Source of the DNA: Sneathiella glossodoripedis JCM 23214 | GTDB lineage: Bacteria; Pseudomonadota; Alphaproteobacteria; Sneathiellales; Sneathiellaceae | Length of the DNA: 64,000 nt | Assembly: GCF_000616095.1 (NCBI RefSeq) | Contig: NZ_BAMS01000002.1 | Span: 248,001 to 312,000 of the forward strand | Direction: 5' to 3' | Shown: in pieces, positions 33,295 to 63,277 of the stretch | Position numbering within the stretch: the stretch's first letter is position 1 | Layout: the number at the start of each line of letters is the position of its first letter | Notes under the pieces: model-generated | What the model saw: the letters and a program-made list of their open reading frames with translations, nothing else | What the model was told of the DNA's origin: nothing | The model's database searches: none | Translations under genes and position numbers: made by a program

Positions 33295-33975
33295 ATGTTA
33301 GGTAATTACCAGCATGTTCCCAATGCAAGGATCGCAAATAAAAGCACAACGATTGTATTCGTTGCGCTTTATTTTTTGTTGCTCGCATTTTTTATTTATC
33401 TGAACTCAATATCGGAACCTGCGGAAGAGCGAATTCGCTCTGTTATTGGCAGTATTGACGTTGCTTTCAAAGGGGAAGAAAAGACACAGCAGGAACATGC
33501 GGATACCCACTACAAGCAGGACAAGCTCGGCAATGCGGTGTTTCATGCTCAATTGAAGCAGGTCTATGAAGCTGCTATTCCACTGATCAAAAGTGAAGAG
33601 AGTAAAGAGGGCGATAGTTTGCGTTTTCGCATTCCTGTCAGTCAGTTATTTGCAGAAAAATCCACGGATATCCGCGCCGCCAGACAAGATTTACTTGATG
33701 AGACCGCCAGAATTCTGATTAAACGCAGTAGTGTTGTCCCGACTGATATGGAAATTTCACTTAGGACATCTGCTGATTTACCCAAATCGGACGAGCTTGG
33801 TGGAAATCTGGATATTAAGCGATTAAACACACTGGTAGAAAGCTTTGCCGCGCAAGGTGTGCCAGCGAGAAATCTGTTTGTTGGACTTTCCGGAAATGCT
33901 GAGAATGAAGTCGTATTTCAGTTCTATGTACGGGATAATTTTAATCACCAATTCCAGAGGGAAGCTGATAAATGA
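33295..33975 (+). CDS. Membrane-anchored protein of the motor operon
   Basis: A 226-residue protein I do not recognise by family. It has one N-terminal transmembrane segment (TIVFVALYFLLLAFFIYLNSIS) and a periplasmic domain with alternating strands and helices (LRFRIPVSQLFAEKSTDIRAAR, ILIKRSSVVPTDMEISLR, LVESFAAQGVPARNLFVGL). The VPTDMEISL / LSFAAQGVPARNL pattern loosely recalls OmpA-type stator domains, as if a second MotB-like partner. It ends in an ATGA overlap with motB. Confidence 0.6.
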   Translation: MLGNYQHVPNARIANKSTTIVFVALYFLLLAFFIYLNSISEPAEERIRSVIGSIDVAFKGEEKTQQEHADTHYKQDKLGNAVFHAQLKQVYEAAIPLIKSEESKEGDSLRFRIPVSQLFAEKSTDIRAARQDLLDETARILIKRSSVVPTDMEISLRTSADLPKSDELGGNLDIKRLNTLVESFAAQGVPARNLFVGLSGNAENEVVFQFYVRDNFNHQFQREADK

Positions 33976-34696
33976 GCCTTCTGGATGAAAATATGCTACC
34001 TGCCAAGCGCCGCACAAATACTATGTGGCTTACCTCGTTAGCTGATTTGCTTGCGCTCCTACTCGCGTTTTTTGTTCTTGTGTTTGCGATGAATGAAATC
34101 AAACGGGACACTTGGGAAAAGGTAATTGATGCAATCGGTAATCCGCTTAATCTGAACATAGAGAATGAAGAGGCGGGACCAACCGCTGAGAAGAATGTGG
34201 AGCTGTTCTCGGAACAACGAGCATTTGATCTGGACTATCTGGAAAATATTATCAGCGCAAAAGTCGCAAATAGTGAACAGCTAAAACATGTTGAGGTGTT
34301 CAAGCTGCAGACCGCCTTATTATTTCGTTTGCTGGCGATACTTTTTTTGAGGCTGGAAATAATACAGTATCTCAAAAGCTGGTGGAAGCAACTCGATTGC
34401 TCGGTGAAAGTCTGCGCTATGTAAAAAACAGGGTGGAGGTATACGGTCATACGGACCCGGTTCAGGCAAAGAACCCAACAGAGGAAACTCTGTCCAACTG
34501 GGGTTTGTCACTTGCCCGGGCCCTGTCAGTATCAGAGGCCTTGCGACGGGCGGGTTATGGGTATGATATTCGTGTTTTTGGAATGGCAGATACACGTTTC
34601 TTTGAACTGGCATCTGTAGAGACAAAAGAAAAAAAATATGCACTTGCACGCCGCGTTGATATTGTCATTCGCGAAGCAAAGGGACTTGATCGATGA
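33972..34696 (+). CDS. motB: MotB-like stator protein with OmpA domain (single frameshift)
   Basis: Stator subunit anchoring the motor to peptidoglycan. The N-terminal plug is TMWLTSLADLLALLLAFFVLVFAMN, with the proton-carrying aspartate at residue 25, followed by KRDTWEKVI. The frame breaks near 34310-34330. The other frame carries SFAGDTFFEAGNNTVSQKLVEATRL and VEVYGHTDPVQ ... NWGLSLARALSVSEALRRAGY ... IRVFGMADTR, the OmpA peptidoglycan-binding fold. One missing base gives a full product of about 241 residues. No motA is in this window, so it lies elsewhere. ATGA overlaps join it to the genes on both sides. Confidence 0.88.
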
Positions 34697-37600
34697 TTAA
34701 TCTCAGGCTTCCAGGGCAAAAAATACTCTTCTTGCTGGGTTTTATTCTGAGCTTTGCGTTTATGCCAATATTGGTGAACGCAGCGGAAAAAATTGCAATT
34801 CGGGCCGCGGAACATCCCACATATGGGCGTGTTGTTTTCGACTGGGGCAGAGCGCAATCTTATGATGCTGATATTCGCGAGGGAAGCTTGATAATCACTT
34901 TCAAGGATCCGCTAGAGGCTAATCTATCAGTTGCGGAAAGAGCCCTGCAAGATTATGTGGGGAAAGGGGAAATATATAATAATAACAAAAGTGTACGATT
35001 TCCTCTTAAAGGCGAATATGGGTTAAGGACGGCAGTTTATGGAACAGCAATTGCGGTCGACTTACTGAAGAATTCAGGTGCTACTGATGCGCGAAAATCT
35101 GTTCGTGTGCGCGCCGGTGACCATCCAAAATACAGTCGCCTTGTGGTGGACTGGCCAACGCGCACTGAATATCAGGTTCAAAAGAAAAACGGTTTTTTTG
35201 ATCTGGTTTTTGATAAATCCGCGAATCTTGACATCGCCAAAATACAATCTGACTTGCCGAAATTTGTGAGCGGGCTGGCGGTAGAGCAAAATAGTGGCTC
35301 AACAACGTTGCGTGTAACAACAGGTGATAATGCGACAGTCCGCGCTTTTCGCAGCGGAAACAGCATTGCTTTTGATTTCCGCAAAGATCAAACAGGAAAT
35401 ACCACAGCCTCAACAGAAGTTGATCCAAAACCAGCGGTAGTTGCGAAAGTTTCGAAAACACCTGTACAGAAGCTGACAAATAACATTGATAAAGTAACCC
35501 AGCCTACGCGTGAGGACGATCCAGTACCCAGTCCTGCACAAGAGTTGGGAACTAAAGATACAGAAACAATAACAGCAAGTCTGAAACCCGCACCTGCTGA
35601 AAATGTTGGCGCGTCACAGGCAGAAGAACCTGCAGACGTGCCAGCCATGGCAACCAATTCACCAAGATCATTGATCCCCGTAGCAGGCTCTAAACCCATG
35701 AAAGCTGAACCTGCTCTGCCTGAGAAAAAGTTACTTGTGGATGTTGGTAACCTTAGAGATGGATTTCGGTTGATTTTTCCTTTTGAAGAATCTGCGGCTA
35801 TGGCTTTGTTTGAGCGGTCAGGTAATTATTGGGTCGTGTTTGACAAGCCTGTAGCACTGGATTTTCGAAATTTGGGTGGTCCCTATAAGTTTCTGGTATT
35901 GAAGAAAAAACAGTTCGGCCATGAAAGCGCTACAATCGCTAGATTAGCTGTTCGAGATGGGTACGCGCCCAGCGTTACCCGTATCCAGAATGAGTGGCGT
36001 GTCGACTTTCGACTGGCGGAGTCTCCGGTTATCAAGAATACCATTGATATTCAGCCACAGCCTGCGGCACAAAATGGCGCGCGGGTATTTATTCCTGCCG
36101 TCAATAACGGGGACAAAATTAGCTTTATTGATCCACAGGCAGGTGATGAACTTGTTGCAGTTCCTCTGCATGCCCCAAGCTGGGGTTTTGGCAGATCAAG
36201 AACCTTTACACAGTTTACGATTTTACCCTCAATGCAGGGAATTGCGATGACGGCGCGCGATCCGTCTGTTGCGGTTAGTGTGGAGCGAAATGGCGTATCA
36301 GTTACTGCAGAAGGTGGATTGCAGCTAACCCGCGCGATTTCCCGCCAAGATTTGTTCGCGGACGGTGATCTGACGGATCGTTTTGATTCCAAGAAAGATA
36401 AAGCACAATTGGTTCAACTCGATACTTGGCGGCAGGTGCCTGCCAAGGAATTTTGGGAACGTAAACAGCTTTTACAGCGGCGCGTAGCAAGGTCACCTCA
36501 GGCGGGGCGTAATGGTCCCAGAATGGAGCTGGCCAAATTTTTGGTTGGGCATGAGTTTCATGCGGATGCAATCGGAGTATTGGAGCGGATACGTCTTGAT
36601 GATCCCCGTGCAGATGAGGATGGGGTTTACAGATTGCTACGAGGGCTCGCCAACCTGGGTCTAAGGCATCTGGATCAGGCGGAAGTCGATCTGTTTAACC
36701 CGGTATTTGATGGCATTGCTGAGGTGGCGCCGTGGCGAGCTAAGCTTGCTGCAGAGAAGAAAGATTGGAAACGGGCAGCGTCTGAGCTCAAAATCGGCCG
36801 CGATGCTTTTGGAGTTTATGATCAGGATTTATCAAACGAGTTCAATCTGTTGGCGGCTGAAGCTGCGCTAGAGGATTATGACATTGAAGCCGCTAATGCG
36901 GCACTTGAAGAAATCAGAACATCCGTGAGTGGTCAGGTAGATCTTGAGACCGCTGCTTTGCGGGAATATCTGGAGGGTGTCTCCGCTTTGCGCTCAGGGG
37001 ATATTGGGCGCGCCGTTGGAAAATTTGATCAAACGATAGCGCTTGATCATAGACCAACAACAGCGAAAGCAAGATTTGCCAAGGTAAATGCCCAGCTTGC
37101 GTTGAAAGAATTATCGCCGGAAGAGGCAATTGAAGAGTTTCGTAAAATGTCGTTCGTCTGGCGCGGTGATGAACTTGAGCTCAATATTCTCAAGCGGATC
37201 GGTGACTTGCAAATTGCAAGTGGTCAAATGCGCGAAGGTCTGAAGACCTTTAAGGAAATTGTCATGACATTTCCAAAAGCACCCATCGCGCGGGATACAG
37301 CAAGGGAAATGAATGACATATTCAATCAATTATTTCTTGAAGGTGGTGCAGAGGCGCTCCCTCCCATAAAGGCACTGGCGCTTTATTATGAATATCGTGA
37401 ACTCACACCACTTGGGGATAAGGGCGATCAAATGATCAGAAATTTGGCAGATCGATTAATCAAGGTTGATCTGCTGGAACAGGCCGCGCAACTGCTTGAC
37501 CATCAGGTTAATTTCCGACTTAGCGGGGCACAGAAGGCTGTCACGGGAGCAAAGCTTGCTGTTGTACATCTTTGGAATGGTGATCCTAAAGAGAGTATCA

Positions 37601-38127
37601 ATATCTTGAGCCGCACAAGATGGCGGGCTTTACCTGATCGCGTGAAAGACGAGCGTCGCTATATCCATGCGCGAGCCAATATGGAACTTGGCAAGTATGA
37701 CGATGCGTTGGATTTTCTCGAATCTGATAACAGTGAAACTGCAGATTTACTCCGTGCTGAGATTTATTGGAAGTCAAAAAACTGGGCACGTGCAACCGAT
37801 TCTATTGATAAGCTTCTTCAGAAAAACGGTGCCGAAAAAGCAGTCAAACTGAGCGAGGTGGATCGGCAACGGGTGATGCAAATGGCAGTTGCATACAGCC
37901 TTTCAGCAGATACAAACGGGATCAATAAACTTCGTTCGACCTACCGCAAGAAGTTAGTTGGTACGCCGGATCTGGATGCATTTGATTTAATTACAGATCA
38001 ATCAGACGCCTCTGACACAGGGTTTAGGGAGCGGGCGACAGCAATCGCAAAAATTGGTCAACTTGAGAGTTTTATGGCTGGGTATCGCGAACAGCTTAAA
38101 AATGGAGAATTCTGGTCAACGAACTAG
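34693..38127 (+). CDS. Large periplasmic AMIN-like/TPR protein of the motor operon
   Basis: A 1144-residue exported protein. A signal sequence (FLLGFILSFAFMPILVNA) is followed by two or three AMIN-like modules: RAAEHPTYGRVVFDWGRA, then RAGDHPKYSRLVVDWPTR, and a later GFRLIFPFEESAAM. A Thr/Pro-rich linker (about 230-330) intervenes. From about residue 600 helical TPR-like repeats take over (FLVGHEFHADAIGVLERIRLDDP, KKDWKRAASELKIGRDAFGVYD, GDIGRAVGKFDQTIALDHRP). Start overlaps motB by ATGA. A peptidoglycan or stator scaffold role is inferred from the operon. Confidence 0.72.
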   Translation: MINLRLPGQKILFLLGFILSFAFMPILVNAAEKIAIRAAEHPTYGRVVFDWGRAQSYDADIREGSLIITFKDPLEANLSVAERALQDYVGKGEIYNNNKSVRFPLKGEYGLRTAVYGTAIAVDLLKNSGATDARKSVRVRAGDHPKYSRLVVDWPTRTEYQVQKKNGFFDLVFDKSANLDIAKIQSDLPKFVSGLAVEQNSGSTTLRVTTGDNATVRAFRSGNSIAFDFRKDQTGNTTASTEVDPKPAVVAKVSKTPVQKLTNNIDKVTQPTREDDPVPSPAQELGTKDTETITASLKPAPAENVGASQAEEPADVPAMATNSPRSLIPVAGSKPMKAEPALPEKKLLVDVGNLRDGFRLIFPFEESAAMALFERSGNYWVVFDKPVALDFRNLGGPYKFLVLKKKQFGHESATIARLAVRDGYAPSVTRIQNEWRVDFRLAESPVIKNTIDIQPQPAAQNGARVFIPAVNNGDKISFIDPQAGDELVAVPLHAPSWGFGRSRTFTQFTILPSMQGIAMTARDPSVAVSVERNGVSVTAEGGLQLTRAISRQDLFADGDLTDRFDSKKDKAQLVQLDTWRQVPAKEFWERKQLLQRRVARSPQAGRNGPRMELAKFLVGHEFHADAIGVLERIRLDDPRADEDGVYRLLRGLANLGLRHLDQAEVDLFNPVFDGIAEVAPWRAKLAAEKKDWKRAASELKIGRDAFGVYDQDLSNEFNLLAAEAALEDYDIEAANAALEEIRTSVSGQVDLETAALREYLEGVSALRSGDIGRAVGKFDQTIALDHRPTTAKARFAKVNAQLALKELSPEEAIEEFRKMSFVWRGDELELNILKRIGDLQIASGQMREGLKTFKEIVMTFPKAPIARDTAREMNDIFNQLFLEGGAEALPPIKALALYYEYRELTPLGDKGDQMIRNLADRLIKVDLLEQAAQLLDHQVNFRLSGAQKAVTGAKLAVVHLWNGDPKESINILSRTRWRALPDRVKDERRYIHARANMELGKYDDALDFLESDNSETADLLRAEIYWKSKNWARATDSIDKLLQKNGAEKAVKLSEVDRQRVMQMAVAYSLSADTNGINKLRSTYRKKLVGTPDLDAFDLITDQSDASDTGFRERATAIAKIGQLESFMAGYREQLKNGEFWSTN

Positions 38128-38142
38128 CAGAACGTTCGCCAG

Positions 38143-38795
38143 CTATGTTCTCGTTTTTAAACCATTTTGTTTCATGCGCCATAAAGCGAGATCAACTCGA
38201 TCCTGCCCGAAAAAAGGTTCCCCTTCATAAACTAGTGTTGGTACTCCCCAATGTCCGGATTTTTCCAAAGCTTCCTGGTTTTGCTGAATTCGACTGTCGA
38301 TTTCAACTTCATGGCCTGTTACCTGTTGTTGCAGAACATCAAGGTTAAAGCCGGCTGCTGCCACCGTTTGCGATAGAATTTCGGGCTTATGCCAGTCAAC
38401 AGTTGTACCATCAAAAATAGATTTTGATACAACGTTCAAAAATTCAAGGCCATCTCCAGTCTCACTTGCAATCACACCTAGGCGGGTGATGTTGTGGATA
38501 TAGGGTTGATCTTCAGAAATTCTTCCTTTTTCCCTATCTATCACGACTGGATCGGGCCTTGGCCATATGAATGTCATACCTCGGTATTCTGCAATTCGCG
38601 CGCAATCGAGCATAAGATACGGAATCCATTGAGGATTGATCGTTTCAAAAAACTCTGGATTGCGGATAGCAATGGGATAAACCGGGCGAACATTTATTTT
38701 TAGATCATACGTTTTTACAAGATCCAGGTACTGAGGGATTGCCAGATAGGAATAGGGGCTTCGAAACGACCAGAACAGGTCGCAGTCATTGTCAT
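38143..38795 (-). CDS. 2-hydroxychromene-2-carboxylate isomerase/DsbA-fold protein (frameshift at start)
   Basis: Thioredoxin-fold isomerase of the HCCA/GST-kappa family. Frame A supplies ATG at 38795 (AGGGTGA before it) and MTMTA; frame B begins DLFWSFRSPYSYLAIPQYLDL with the family SPYSYL motif. It continues VRPVYPIAIRNPEFF and the C-terminus GHWGVPTLVYEGEPFFGQDRVDLALW. One missing base near 38781-38785 joins them; about 217 residues. It lies 99 bp downstream of the DUF6065-like gene on the same strand, so co-transcription is possible. Confidence 0.8.
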
Positions 38796-38894
38796 GGGGT
38801 TCACCCTTTTTGTTTTTTGTTCCTTTTTCCTATTGTGACAATGATTGCCAAGAGGATCAATTCCGAAATTCATCACTTGTTCAATTGATAAATT

Positions 38895-39689
38895 TTATTT
38901 CCGGTTCTTTCTGGACGTTTTTGCATAAAGTCCGCGCGGGCGTTCTTGAGCTGACCCCGGGTCAAGCACGGTAGCCTTGTAATCGGTCCAGTCTTCGTCA
39001 TCAAAGCTGTTCAGGTCTTCCGCAAATTCGAAATCCTTGAGAACCTTTTCACTATATGTGCTGCGATGTAGGGGTTGAATTTGCATAAGTGGCATATCGC
39101 GCCTGAAACTGATTGGCATGTCGGTTTTTCGTAAGCGCAGATTTGTAAATAAAGGACCAAACCATCGATCAGTTTCAATAATTCCCTCAAAATGTTCATA
39201 AGCACTATGTGCTGGCAAATTCGCGGGTTGGCGTACCAATATGCTCCAATCGGGTTGCGTTTTAACCATTAGACCGGACCAGATTTTAAGGACACCACTT
39301 TCGGGGGCGCGTGAAATAAAGGGAGGGGCATAGCCTTTAAGCTGGGGTGGCGAGTTTTTGTCGAAATGATCTGAAAAACCCGGATATTGTGCGGCTTCTA
39401 ACGGAAGCCAACTATCCATATCCCCAAATTGCCAAAATATTTCTGAACCATTCCAAAGCACAGAAAAGTCCATGGGAGGAAATATGTACCAACCGAAAGC
39501 AGAAGCCGTTGTCATCGGTTCACAGTATCGGAATGCTCGGGTTGGGATTAATCCACCTGCCGATCTGTCTGCCCTTTGAGGTTTAGGAGTGTCCTCGATC
39601 ATACGGTAAAATTTGATGATCGGCGAAGGTGACACCAGCGCGGAACTCCGCGCTAGGTCACTTTTTTCAATACCCTTTTGGATACCCAT
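38895..39689 (-). CDS. DUF6065-like protein next to repeat peptide gene
   Basis: A 264-residue soluble protein of the DUF6065 type, function unknown. Conserved-looking blocks are IKFYRMIEDTPKPQRADRSAGGLIPTRAFRYCEP, SAFGWYIFPPMDFSVLWNG, FISRAPESGVLKIWSGLMVKT, PDWSILVRQPANLP, IIETDRWFGPLFTNLRLRKT and MQIQPLHR. The DUF6065 assignment rests on the AxAxGW / PxNxP / VETDW-like order and is by memory. It begins 11 bases after the stop of the five-repeat protein, so they form one transcription unit. There is no signal peptide, so it is probably cytoplasmic, as a modifying enzyme or binder of the peptide would be. Confidence 0.7.
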   Translation of the reverse strand: MGIQKGIEKSDLARSSALVSPSPIIKFYRMIEDTPKPQRADRSAGGLIPTRAFRYCEPMTTASAFGWYIFPPMDFSVLWNGSEIFWQFGDMDSWLPLEAAQYPGFSDHFDKNSPPQLKGYAPPFISRAPESGVLKIWSGLMVKTQPDWSILVRQPANLPAHSAYEHFEGIIETDRWFGPLFTNLRLRKTDMPISFRRDMPLMQIQPLHRSTYSEKVLKDFEFAEDLNSFDDEDWTDYKATVLDPGSAQERPRGLYAKTSRKNRK

Positions 39690-39700
39690 AATGTTTTTGA

Positions 39701-40087
39701 TTAAACGCGAAAGGCAGGGCTCATATTTCCAAGGCGCACCTTGGCATTATCTTTTGTTTTTGTTTCTGAGATGTCAATTTTAAACACCGGGCTCATGTTC
39801 CCAAGGCGGACTTTTGCGCTATCTTTTACTTCTGTGTCAGATGTTTCTATTTTGAATGCAGGACTCATATTCCCCAGACGAACTGCTCCGGTGTCTTTTG
39901 TCTTGGCGTTGGATGTTTCAACTTTAAACGCCGGGCTCATATTTCCCAGTTGAACATTTTTTTTATCACTAACCTCTGCTTTCGCACTTTCAATCTTGAA
40001 TGCAGGGCTCATATTGCCAAGGCGAACAGAACCACAATCTTTAGTGGAAGTTTTATTGGTTGAAACAGAGAAGGTACGAGTAAACAT
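39701..40087 (-). CDS. Five-repeat LGNMSPAF protein (candidate multi-core peptide precursor)
   Basis: A 128-residue protein: a 20-residue leader with one cysteine (TKDCGS), four 24-residue units and a final 12-residue half unit. Each unit starts V(R/Q)LGNMSP(A/V)F(K/R)(I/V)(E/D) and then has a variable, charged Lys/Asp/Ser/Thr linker of about 11 residues; the chain ends exactly after the fifth motif. Codons in the motif differ between copies (Gly as GGC, GGA, GGG; Leu as CTT, CTG; Pro as CCT, CCG), so the peptide is under selection. GAGGA precedes the ATG. I know no family for it. Alternatives are a scaffold of repeated ligand motifs or an adhesin-like repeat. Confidence 0.85.
   Translation of the reverse strand: MFTRTFSVSTNKTSTKDCGSVRLGNMSPAFKIESAKAEVSDKKNVQLGNMSPAFKVETSNAKTKDTGAVRLGNMSPAFKIETSDTEVKDSAKVRLGNMSPVFKIDISETKTKDNAKVRLGNMSPAFRV
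39704..40027 (-). repeat. 72-bp tandem repeat (4.5 copies) encoding LGNMSPAF units
   Basis: Five in-frame units with starts 72 bp apart (40027, 39955, 39883, 39811, 39739), the last cut at 36 bp by the stop. DNA identity between copies is moderate and concentrated in the ATGAGCCC block, showing old duplication rather than recent slippage. Confidence 0.9.
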
Positions 40088-40798
40088 TTTAATATCCTCA
40101 TCTAATACATATAAATACAGTTACTGCCCCCAAAACCGAGAGAGTGTTTTTTCTATTCCCATTTATCCATGATCTGGGAATAAAATAGACGTCAAAGTAG
40201 TGTTTGGTGACGTTCTGTGATTAACCGTAATTTTGAAGATCAGGATTGTAAAGTTGGGTGGCGCAATGGTTGTTTAGCCGAAATTTTAACAAAGAAAAAT
40301 CAAACGTTTTTTTGGATCAAGTTTATTAACAGGTTGAAATAAAATATAAAAATTTGAACTGATTATAATTAAAGAGAGAAATATATATTTATTACTCTCT
40401 AATATAAAAGGGTGTCAAAAGATTTCATTAAGGTTAATTTCTGATGGCGGTTAACTATAATATATTGAAGATTAACAAGAATTAAATTCGTTTTTTAAGA
40501 GTTTTGTAATGAATAAAATTTTCGGATTATTTTAATAAAATTTGATTTAACGTATAATGTGATACACTAATGTAACAACCCTCACTAGTAGTATTTAAAA
40601 TTGTTTTAATCTTATTGAGTTCGTAAGTTCAGATGAAAATGATGGAATTTCTTTCCTAATTGAGCGGGAATACTGCATTTCTCTAATTAGGCAGGGTCTT
40701 ATAACCCAAAAAAACGATAAATATATTTTATTGCCGAGGAGAGGGAAAATGCCCGAATTCGCAGAATCACAGGCATTTCAATAGAACGGCAAACGTAT
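40088..40798. other. AT-rich noncoding region
   Basis: About 710 bases of very AT-rich DNA between the repeat-protein start and the threonine dehydratase stop. It has no long open frame on either strand. It holds an 11-codon frame with a strong ribosome binding site near its right end. The composition contrasts with the coding flanks and may reflect an insertion scar or a complex promoter. Confidence 0.6.
40749..40784 (+). CDS. Possible 11-residue small ORF with strong ribosome binding site
   Basis: ATG to TAG encodes MPEFAESQAFQ. GAGGAGAGGG lies four bases before the ATG, one of the strongest ribosome sites in the window. It faces the convergent dehydratase gene. It may be a leader peptide, a remnant of a lost gene, or chance. 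Confidence 0.25.
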   Translation: MPEFAESQAFQ

Positions 40799-63184: not shown

Positions 63185-63277
63185 GGTGAAGTGGCCGAGT
63201 GGCTGAAGGCGCTCCCCTGCTAAGGGAGTATGGGGTTAATAGCTCCATCGTGGGTTCGAATCCCACCTTCACCGCCA
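63185..63277 (+). tRNA. tRNA-Ser (anticodon GCU)
   Basis: Acceptor GGTGAAG pairs with CTTCACC. The anticodon stem-loop CTCCCCTGCTAAGGGAG shows GCT. A long variable arm (class II) and TGGGTTCGAATCCCA T-arm are present, and the CCA end is encoded. About 93 bases. Class II size and GCT fit serine AGY codons. Confidence 0.97.

Follow-up and report, generated by a model that had tools for sequence, protein, structure and literature searches.

We have identified a two-gene module in which a small protein made of short repeated motifs is paired with a DUF6065-like partner. Searches of public genomes recovered 20 distinct loci: nine from Sneathiella, ten from an alphaproteobacterial family designated f66 (with genera g165, g277 and g279) and one on Rhizobium plasmids, where two nearly identical strains were counted as one. 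At all 20 loci the repeat protein lies immediately upstream of the DUF6065-like gene on the same strand (gap of 11-224 nt), and only this pair is common to all lineages. An earlier note on this DNA had proposed that the two genes are functionally coupled, and had suggested searching genomes for the motif, its co-occurrence with DUF6065 and variation in copy number; the search returned the pairing at 20/20 loci with 2-11 motif copies per protein. The functional coupling is strongly supported by this obligate pairing, by joint presence or absence within Sneathiella and by a single clade of partners. Apparent coevolution of the two proteins suggests a two-part system, not described before, with the repeats as docking sites for the partner. 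A predicted fold is now available for an uncharacterised Pfam family, which is coupled here to a small protein with 103 natural copies of its motif.

In the window (the whole 64,000-nt stretch analysed), the repeat protein is encoded on the minus strand, which the earlier note left unstated, at 39701-40087, with a GAGG ribosome-binding site at 40096-40099 and the ATG 8 nt on. Its 128 residues contain five V(R/Q)LGNMSP(A/V)F(K/R)(I/V) motifs at an exact 24-residue period, as the earlier note had read them: copy 1, VRLGNMSPAF (39998-40027); copy 2, VQLGNMSPAF (39926-39955); copy 3, VRLGNMSPAF (39854-39883); copy 4, VRLGNMSPVF (39782-39811); and copy 5, VRLGNMSPAF (39710-39739), all on the minus strand. 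Twenty residues precede motif 1, and the chain ends two residues past the final Phe. Self-similarity of the protein is 40, versus at most 5 across 20 shuffles. It matched no Pfam family above cut-off and no relative in a PDB sequence search, and a looser motif pattern found no further copy in the window genome. The partner gene (38895-39689, minus strand, 264 aa) begins 11 nt past the peptide stop, at the distance first noted.

Codon comparison among the five copies indicates what has been conserved. The ten motif codons have a pS of 0.77 and a pN of 0.04, whereas the linkers have a pS of 0.73 and a pN of 0.34. Thus, selection on the peptide is purifying and the linkers drift around a nearly fixed motif, bearing out what had been proposed from synonymous differences between copies; the same contrast shows that the window array is not a recent DNA duplication. 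Near-identical units in three other arrays (L007, L048 and L095) show that recent duplication does occur, which speaks for a meaningless tandem duplication beside DUF6065. We give that explanation practically no weight: it is refuted by the pS/pN contrast and by conservation across lineages, with independent variants at 20 loci.

Over the 20 loci, the motif can be written V-[RKEQ]-[LMI]-[GA]-[NMG]-[ML]-[SAQ]-P-[ALTV]-F. Its P and F were part of the motif search pattern, whereas V, which is present in 92/103 copies, and the L/M/I position were not. Each lineage carries its own variant: GNMSPAF in Sneathiella, GM[ML][AS]PAF in g165, GG[ML]SPLF in g277 and g279, GGMQPTF in the second module of one f66 genome (G409) and ANKSPAF in Rhizobium. 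Spacing ranges from 10 to 29 residues while motif and gene order persist. No array lacks a copy at the expected spacing, and 19/20 proteins end 0-3 residues after the final Phe. Fixed motifs separated by drifting spacers constitute a sticker-and-spacer pattern. Additionally, most repeat residues have pLDDT <50 in a fused model of repeat protein and partner, consistent with a repeat protein that is apparently disordered.

It is very improbable that the repeat protein assembles with itself as a beta-solenoid or in an amyloid-like manner, DUF6065 being then an accessory or unrelated neighbour. Such a role was indicated by a weak Pfam match to the HET-s model (PF11558; 25.9 bits, E 1e-5), but the score is below the curated cut-off of 32.2 bits and no stretch passes alone, and we rejected this lead. 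Every copy contains an invariant proline, the G-N of the motif becomes G-M or G-G in other lineages, and the pairing with DUF6065 is strict.

The module is sporadic even among close relatives. Among 25 Sneathiella genomes, which as relatives are not 25 independent tests of co-occurrence, the repeat motif and the DUF6065-like gene are both present in 9 and both missing from 16. A search of 398 genomes of the phylum returned the window genome as sole match at E 1e-15; thus, the module is rare. G409 harbours two modules, in which each partner is accompanied by its own motif variant (GMMSPAF and GGMQPTF). The public annotation of the Rhizobium plasmid labels the repeat protein 'hypothetical'. An extra GNMSPAF match in another genome (G012) proved to be a single copy in an unrelated 102-aa frame, and was discarded as a module.

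The partner proteins belong to a distinct branch of their family. The window protein scores 59.9 bits against PF19541 (cut-off 26.6), in agreement with the DUF6065 assignment of the earlier note, and other module members score 39-50 bits. In a tree of 95 DUF6065 proteins, the 20 peptide-associated and 75 canonical sequences separate at 100/100, so the module proteins are a divergent sister group outside the canonical clade. The window protein resembles canonical DUF6065 (PF19541; Alphaproteobacteria and IMG/VR viral contigs) in its PF19541 score and conserved segments. However, canonical genes have no such neighbour: the 30 canonical bacterial loci tested all lack a comparable repeat protein in the nearest 1.5 kb or so, and none was recognised at 80 viral DUF6065 loci examined. 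The literature searched mentions neither the motif strings nor DUF6065, a family for which we know of no catalytic activity.

Structure prediction points to a trimeric-dUTPase-like fold for the partner. An AlphaFold2 model from a 60-row alignment has a pLDDT of 80, and trimeric dUTPases head the list of its PDB matches (Foldseek E 7.7e-5). VIA-align superposes it on 119/119 residues of 3ecy, the whole dUTPase domain, with a Z of 12.4, and a library of predicted viral structures agrees. The resemblance to trimeric dUTPases lies in the predicted all-beta fold; identity is only about 15%, and comparison of the DUF6065 profile with dUTPases and dCTP deaminases gave nothing significant. An hhalign match to dUTPase (E 0.018), in register at motifs III-IV, came from a 6-row profile and was not reproduced with 29 rows. 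By inspection only, GxIETDxW of the partner resembles dUTPase motif III and is kept, whereas the Asp of motif I and the Arg-Ser-Gly of motif II seem to be replaced. A PDB sequence search found no relative of the partner. Homology is not confirmed by sequence profiles, so the case for the fold depends on the model.

Multivalent docking is in keeping with the strict pairing, the short conserved motif between unconstrained spacers, the varying copy number and the complementary charges. We give about an even chance to a linker-and-client reading of the module, in which the repeat protein is disordered and multivalent and gathers the dUTPase-fold partner into clusters by binding it. The V-x-[LMI]-G-x-[ML]-[SA]-P-x-F motifs would be equivalent docking sites along a disordered chain with flexible, variable spacers. 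Each would bind the DUF6065-like protein through hydrophobic anchors (V, L/M, M, P and F) and complementary charge. If the partner is a trimer, binding to a chain with several sites would cross-link it, giving a cytoplasmic assembly in which it is concentrated or its activity controlled. Direct binding, clustering, a ligand or reaction of the partner and a biological role are all inferred, as is its trimeric state, which is assumed from the predicted fold. The two-copy members, found at three Sneathiella loci, are weak cross-linkers. A repeated motif bound by DUF6065 had been named as an alternative in the earlier note, and it is now the best-fitting reading on account of the pairing, the disordered chain and the charges. 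However, the complex prediction, run as a fused model of a locus where read-through naturally joins the repeat protein to its partner (L001), gave no confident docking.

The Rubisco linkers EPYC1 and PYCO1 bind an oligomeric partner (PMC10288592). The repeat protein is like these sticker-and-spacer proteins in having several short conserved motifs per chain and predicted disorder. It differs in belonging to a bacterial two-gene module with unrelated sequence and a partner predicted to have the dUTPase fold. The module may work like sticker-and-spacer linkers while being a member of none known. It is possible, although distinctly less probable than docking and clustering as such, that the disordered protein recruits and concentrates a repurposed dUTPase-fold protein through the short motif and forms a regulated compartment or condensate around a ligand or reaction. 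If so, it would represent a new kind of scaffold system in bacteria and give a DUF6065 clade its first role. Clustering of the partner would provide a simple, genetically encoded scaffold. The compact protein-peptide pair also comes with natural mutagenesis built in, as the loci differ in motif, spacing, copy number and charge.

The charges of the two proteins vary in opposite directions. Per-repeat net charge is strongly anticorrelated with the net charge of the partner over the 20 loci (r = -0.90), and where both proteins are clearly charged their signs are opposite at nearly every locus. Within one family, g165 combines basic repeats with acidic partners, and the sister clade g277/g279 shows the reverse; the TPR regulator next door is acidic in both clades, with no sign flip. 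After phylogenetic correction by independent contrasts, computed on the tree of partners, r is -0.57 (sign-flip P about 0.03). Without the largest contrast, r is -0.42, with 10 negative and 8 positive contrasts, and within Sneathiella alone the correlation is not significant (r -0.38, P 0.32). The phylogenetically corrected correlation rests mostly on one split. The anticorrelation is suggestive of direct electrostatic contact between repeat protein and partner, and is not proof of it.

The earlier note had preferred a multi-core RiPP. In such a reading the DUF6065-like protein would chemically modify each motif, and housekeeping proteases and exporters would release the products. A repeated conserved segment adjoins an uncharacterised gene in all loci, as in multi-core precursors with a candidate partner gene. 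In Rhizobium the module runs on into an MFS permease gene (L105:8720-9862) that overlaps the DUF6065 gene by 4 nt, and an EamA permease lies 166 nt downstream of the second G409 module. In f66, the module, including the second G409 copy, lies beside BTAD/TPR (SARP-type) regulators (L084:6538-8568, L253:449-2497, L254:5520-7682 and L260:611-2614), a regulator type that is common in specialised metabolism. Other DUF6065 proteins are fused to Cupin_8/JmjC or adjoin a 2OG oxygenase. However, N-termini ahead of motif 1 range from 1 to about 70 residues (ORFs as called), with only 1-3 residues in L094, L095 and L100; thus, there is no constant leader. The spacers contain no constant cleavage site. 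Across the 20 loci no protease or transporter is conserved, the permeases being confined to Rhizobium and the second G409 module, and most Sneathiella loci have neither. Additionally, the predicted dUTPase-like fold would itself have to modify peptides, for which we know of no precedent, and to our knowledge the partner is outside any RiPP enzyme family. We therefore regard the RiPP reading, once the preferred one, as unsupported and rather unlikely. Modification of the motif, were it to occur, would define a new RiPP class.

Besides the RiPP, the main rival to multivalent docking is a regulatory or inhibitory pairing, by analogy with phage dUTPases (PMC5608427). Trimeric dUTPases bind regulatory partner proteins, which also counts in favour of docking, and act as regulated switches (PMC5608427). 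The repeat protein might inhibit or sense an enzyme or switch with the dUTPase fold, or serve as its antidote, and the number of copies would tune the dosage. The predicted fold of the partner is compatible with such a role, as are the patchy, island-like occurrence of the module and its long conserved upstream region. However, an inhibitor has no need of up to 11 regular copies, and DUF6065 has no known catalytic activity. PADLOC returned no match for four proteins, which does not exclude defence since a system may be absent from its library; the defence lead was dropped. We consider a regulatory pair unlikely, and somewhat less likely than the RiPP.

The genomic setting in Sneathiella is that of an accessory island. 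A PLP-dependent, threonine dehydratase-like gene (PF00291; 40799-41782, minus strand in the window) borders the module in 9/9 Sneathiella genomes that have it, and a 1144-aa TPR-type protein (34693-38127, plus strand) lies on the other flank. In module-free Sneathiella the PLP gene directly abuts the convergent TPR gene in 12/13 informative genomes, which thus retain an empty site. In the remaining one (G004), the flanking aminotransferase is present and the module absent. Between the PLP gene and the repeat protein, a 711-nt non-coding stretch (40088-40798, minus strand) is AT-rich (30% GC), and its counterparts at the other Sneathiella loci are also AT-rich and span 513-736 nt. It contains a dyad, TGTTACA-N5-GTATCA (40560-40577, minus strand), which lies about 490 nt upstream of the repeat protein and may serve as an operator or promoter element. 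Among the nine Sneathiella loci the dyad is exact in three, has 1-2 mismatches in five and 4 mismatches in the ninth. As its consensus was drawn from these same sequences, only its constant position, 470-504 nt from the start codon in 8/9 loci, is independent support. A dyad so far upstream points to a long leader or to some feature in between.

Canonical DUF6065 genes occur in other settings, including at least 98 viral-contig stretches (IMG/VR; L107-L186), and the module offers a lead on the role of DUF6065 that extends to the many viral contigs with canonical copies. Viral neighbours include DNA polymerase B (L157), a true dUTPase (L136), a 2OG-Fe(II) oxygenase (L146) and collagen-like genes (L114). 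One DUF6065 is fused to a Cupin_8/JmjC domain (L026:1471-3168, 138 bits), and a viral copy has a weak SET-like C-terminus, below cut-off (L163:4938-6200). About 4 kb from another viral copy, unrelated-looking 19-residue repeats (GM[SA]VSGSPL; L138:8948-9319) are possibly there by chance. No relatives turned up when viral sequences were scanned with a profile of the peptide-clade DUF6065 proteins or with a repeat protein of 11 copies. Neither the window DUF6065-like protein nor a viral DUF6065 had a relative in a phage collection, and PHROGs returned only families without assigned function.

Elsewhere in the window, two genes near the module may contain errors. A DsbA-like or 2-hydroxychromene isomerase-like gene (38143-38810, minus strand) has no in-frame ATG at the start position of its relative in L008; the ATG there is out of frame, and a frameshift or assembly error is possible. 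A MotB-like gene (33972-34696, plus strand) appears split into overlapping frames (33972-34424 and 34382-34696), possibly by a second assembly indel. A tRNA-Ser (GCT) at 63185-63277 is the sole Rfam match in the window.
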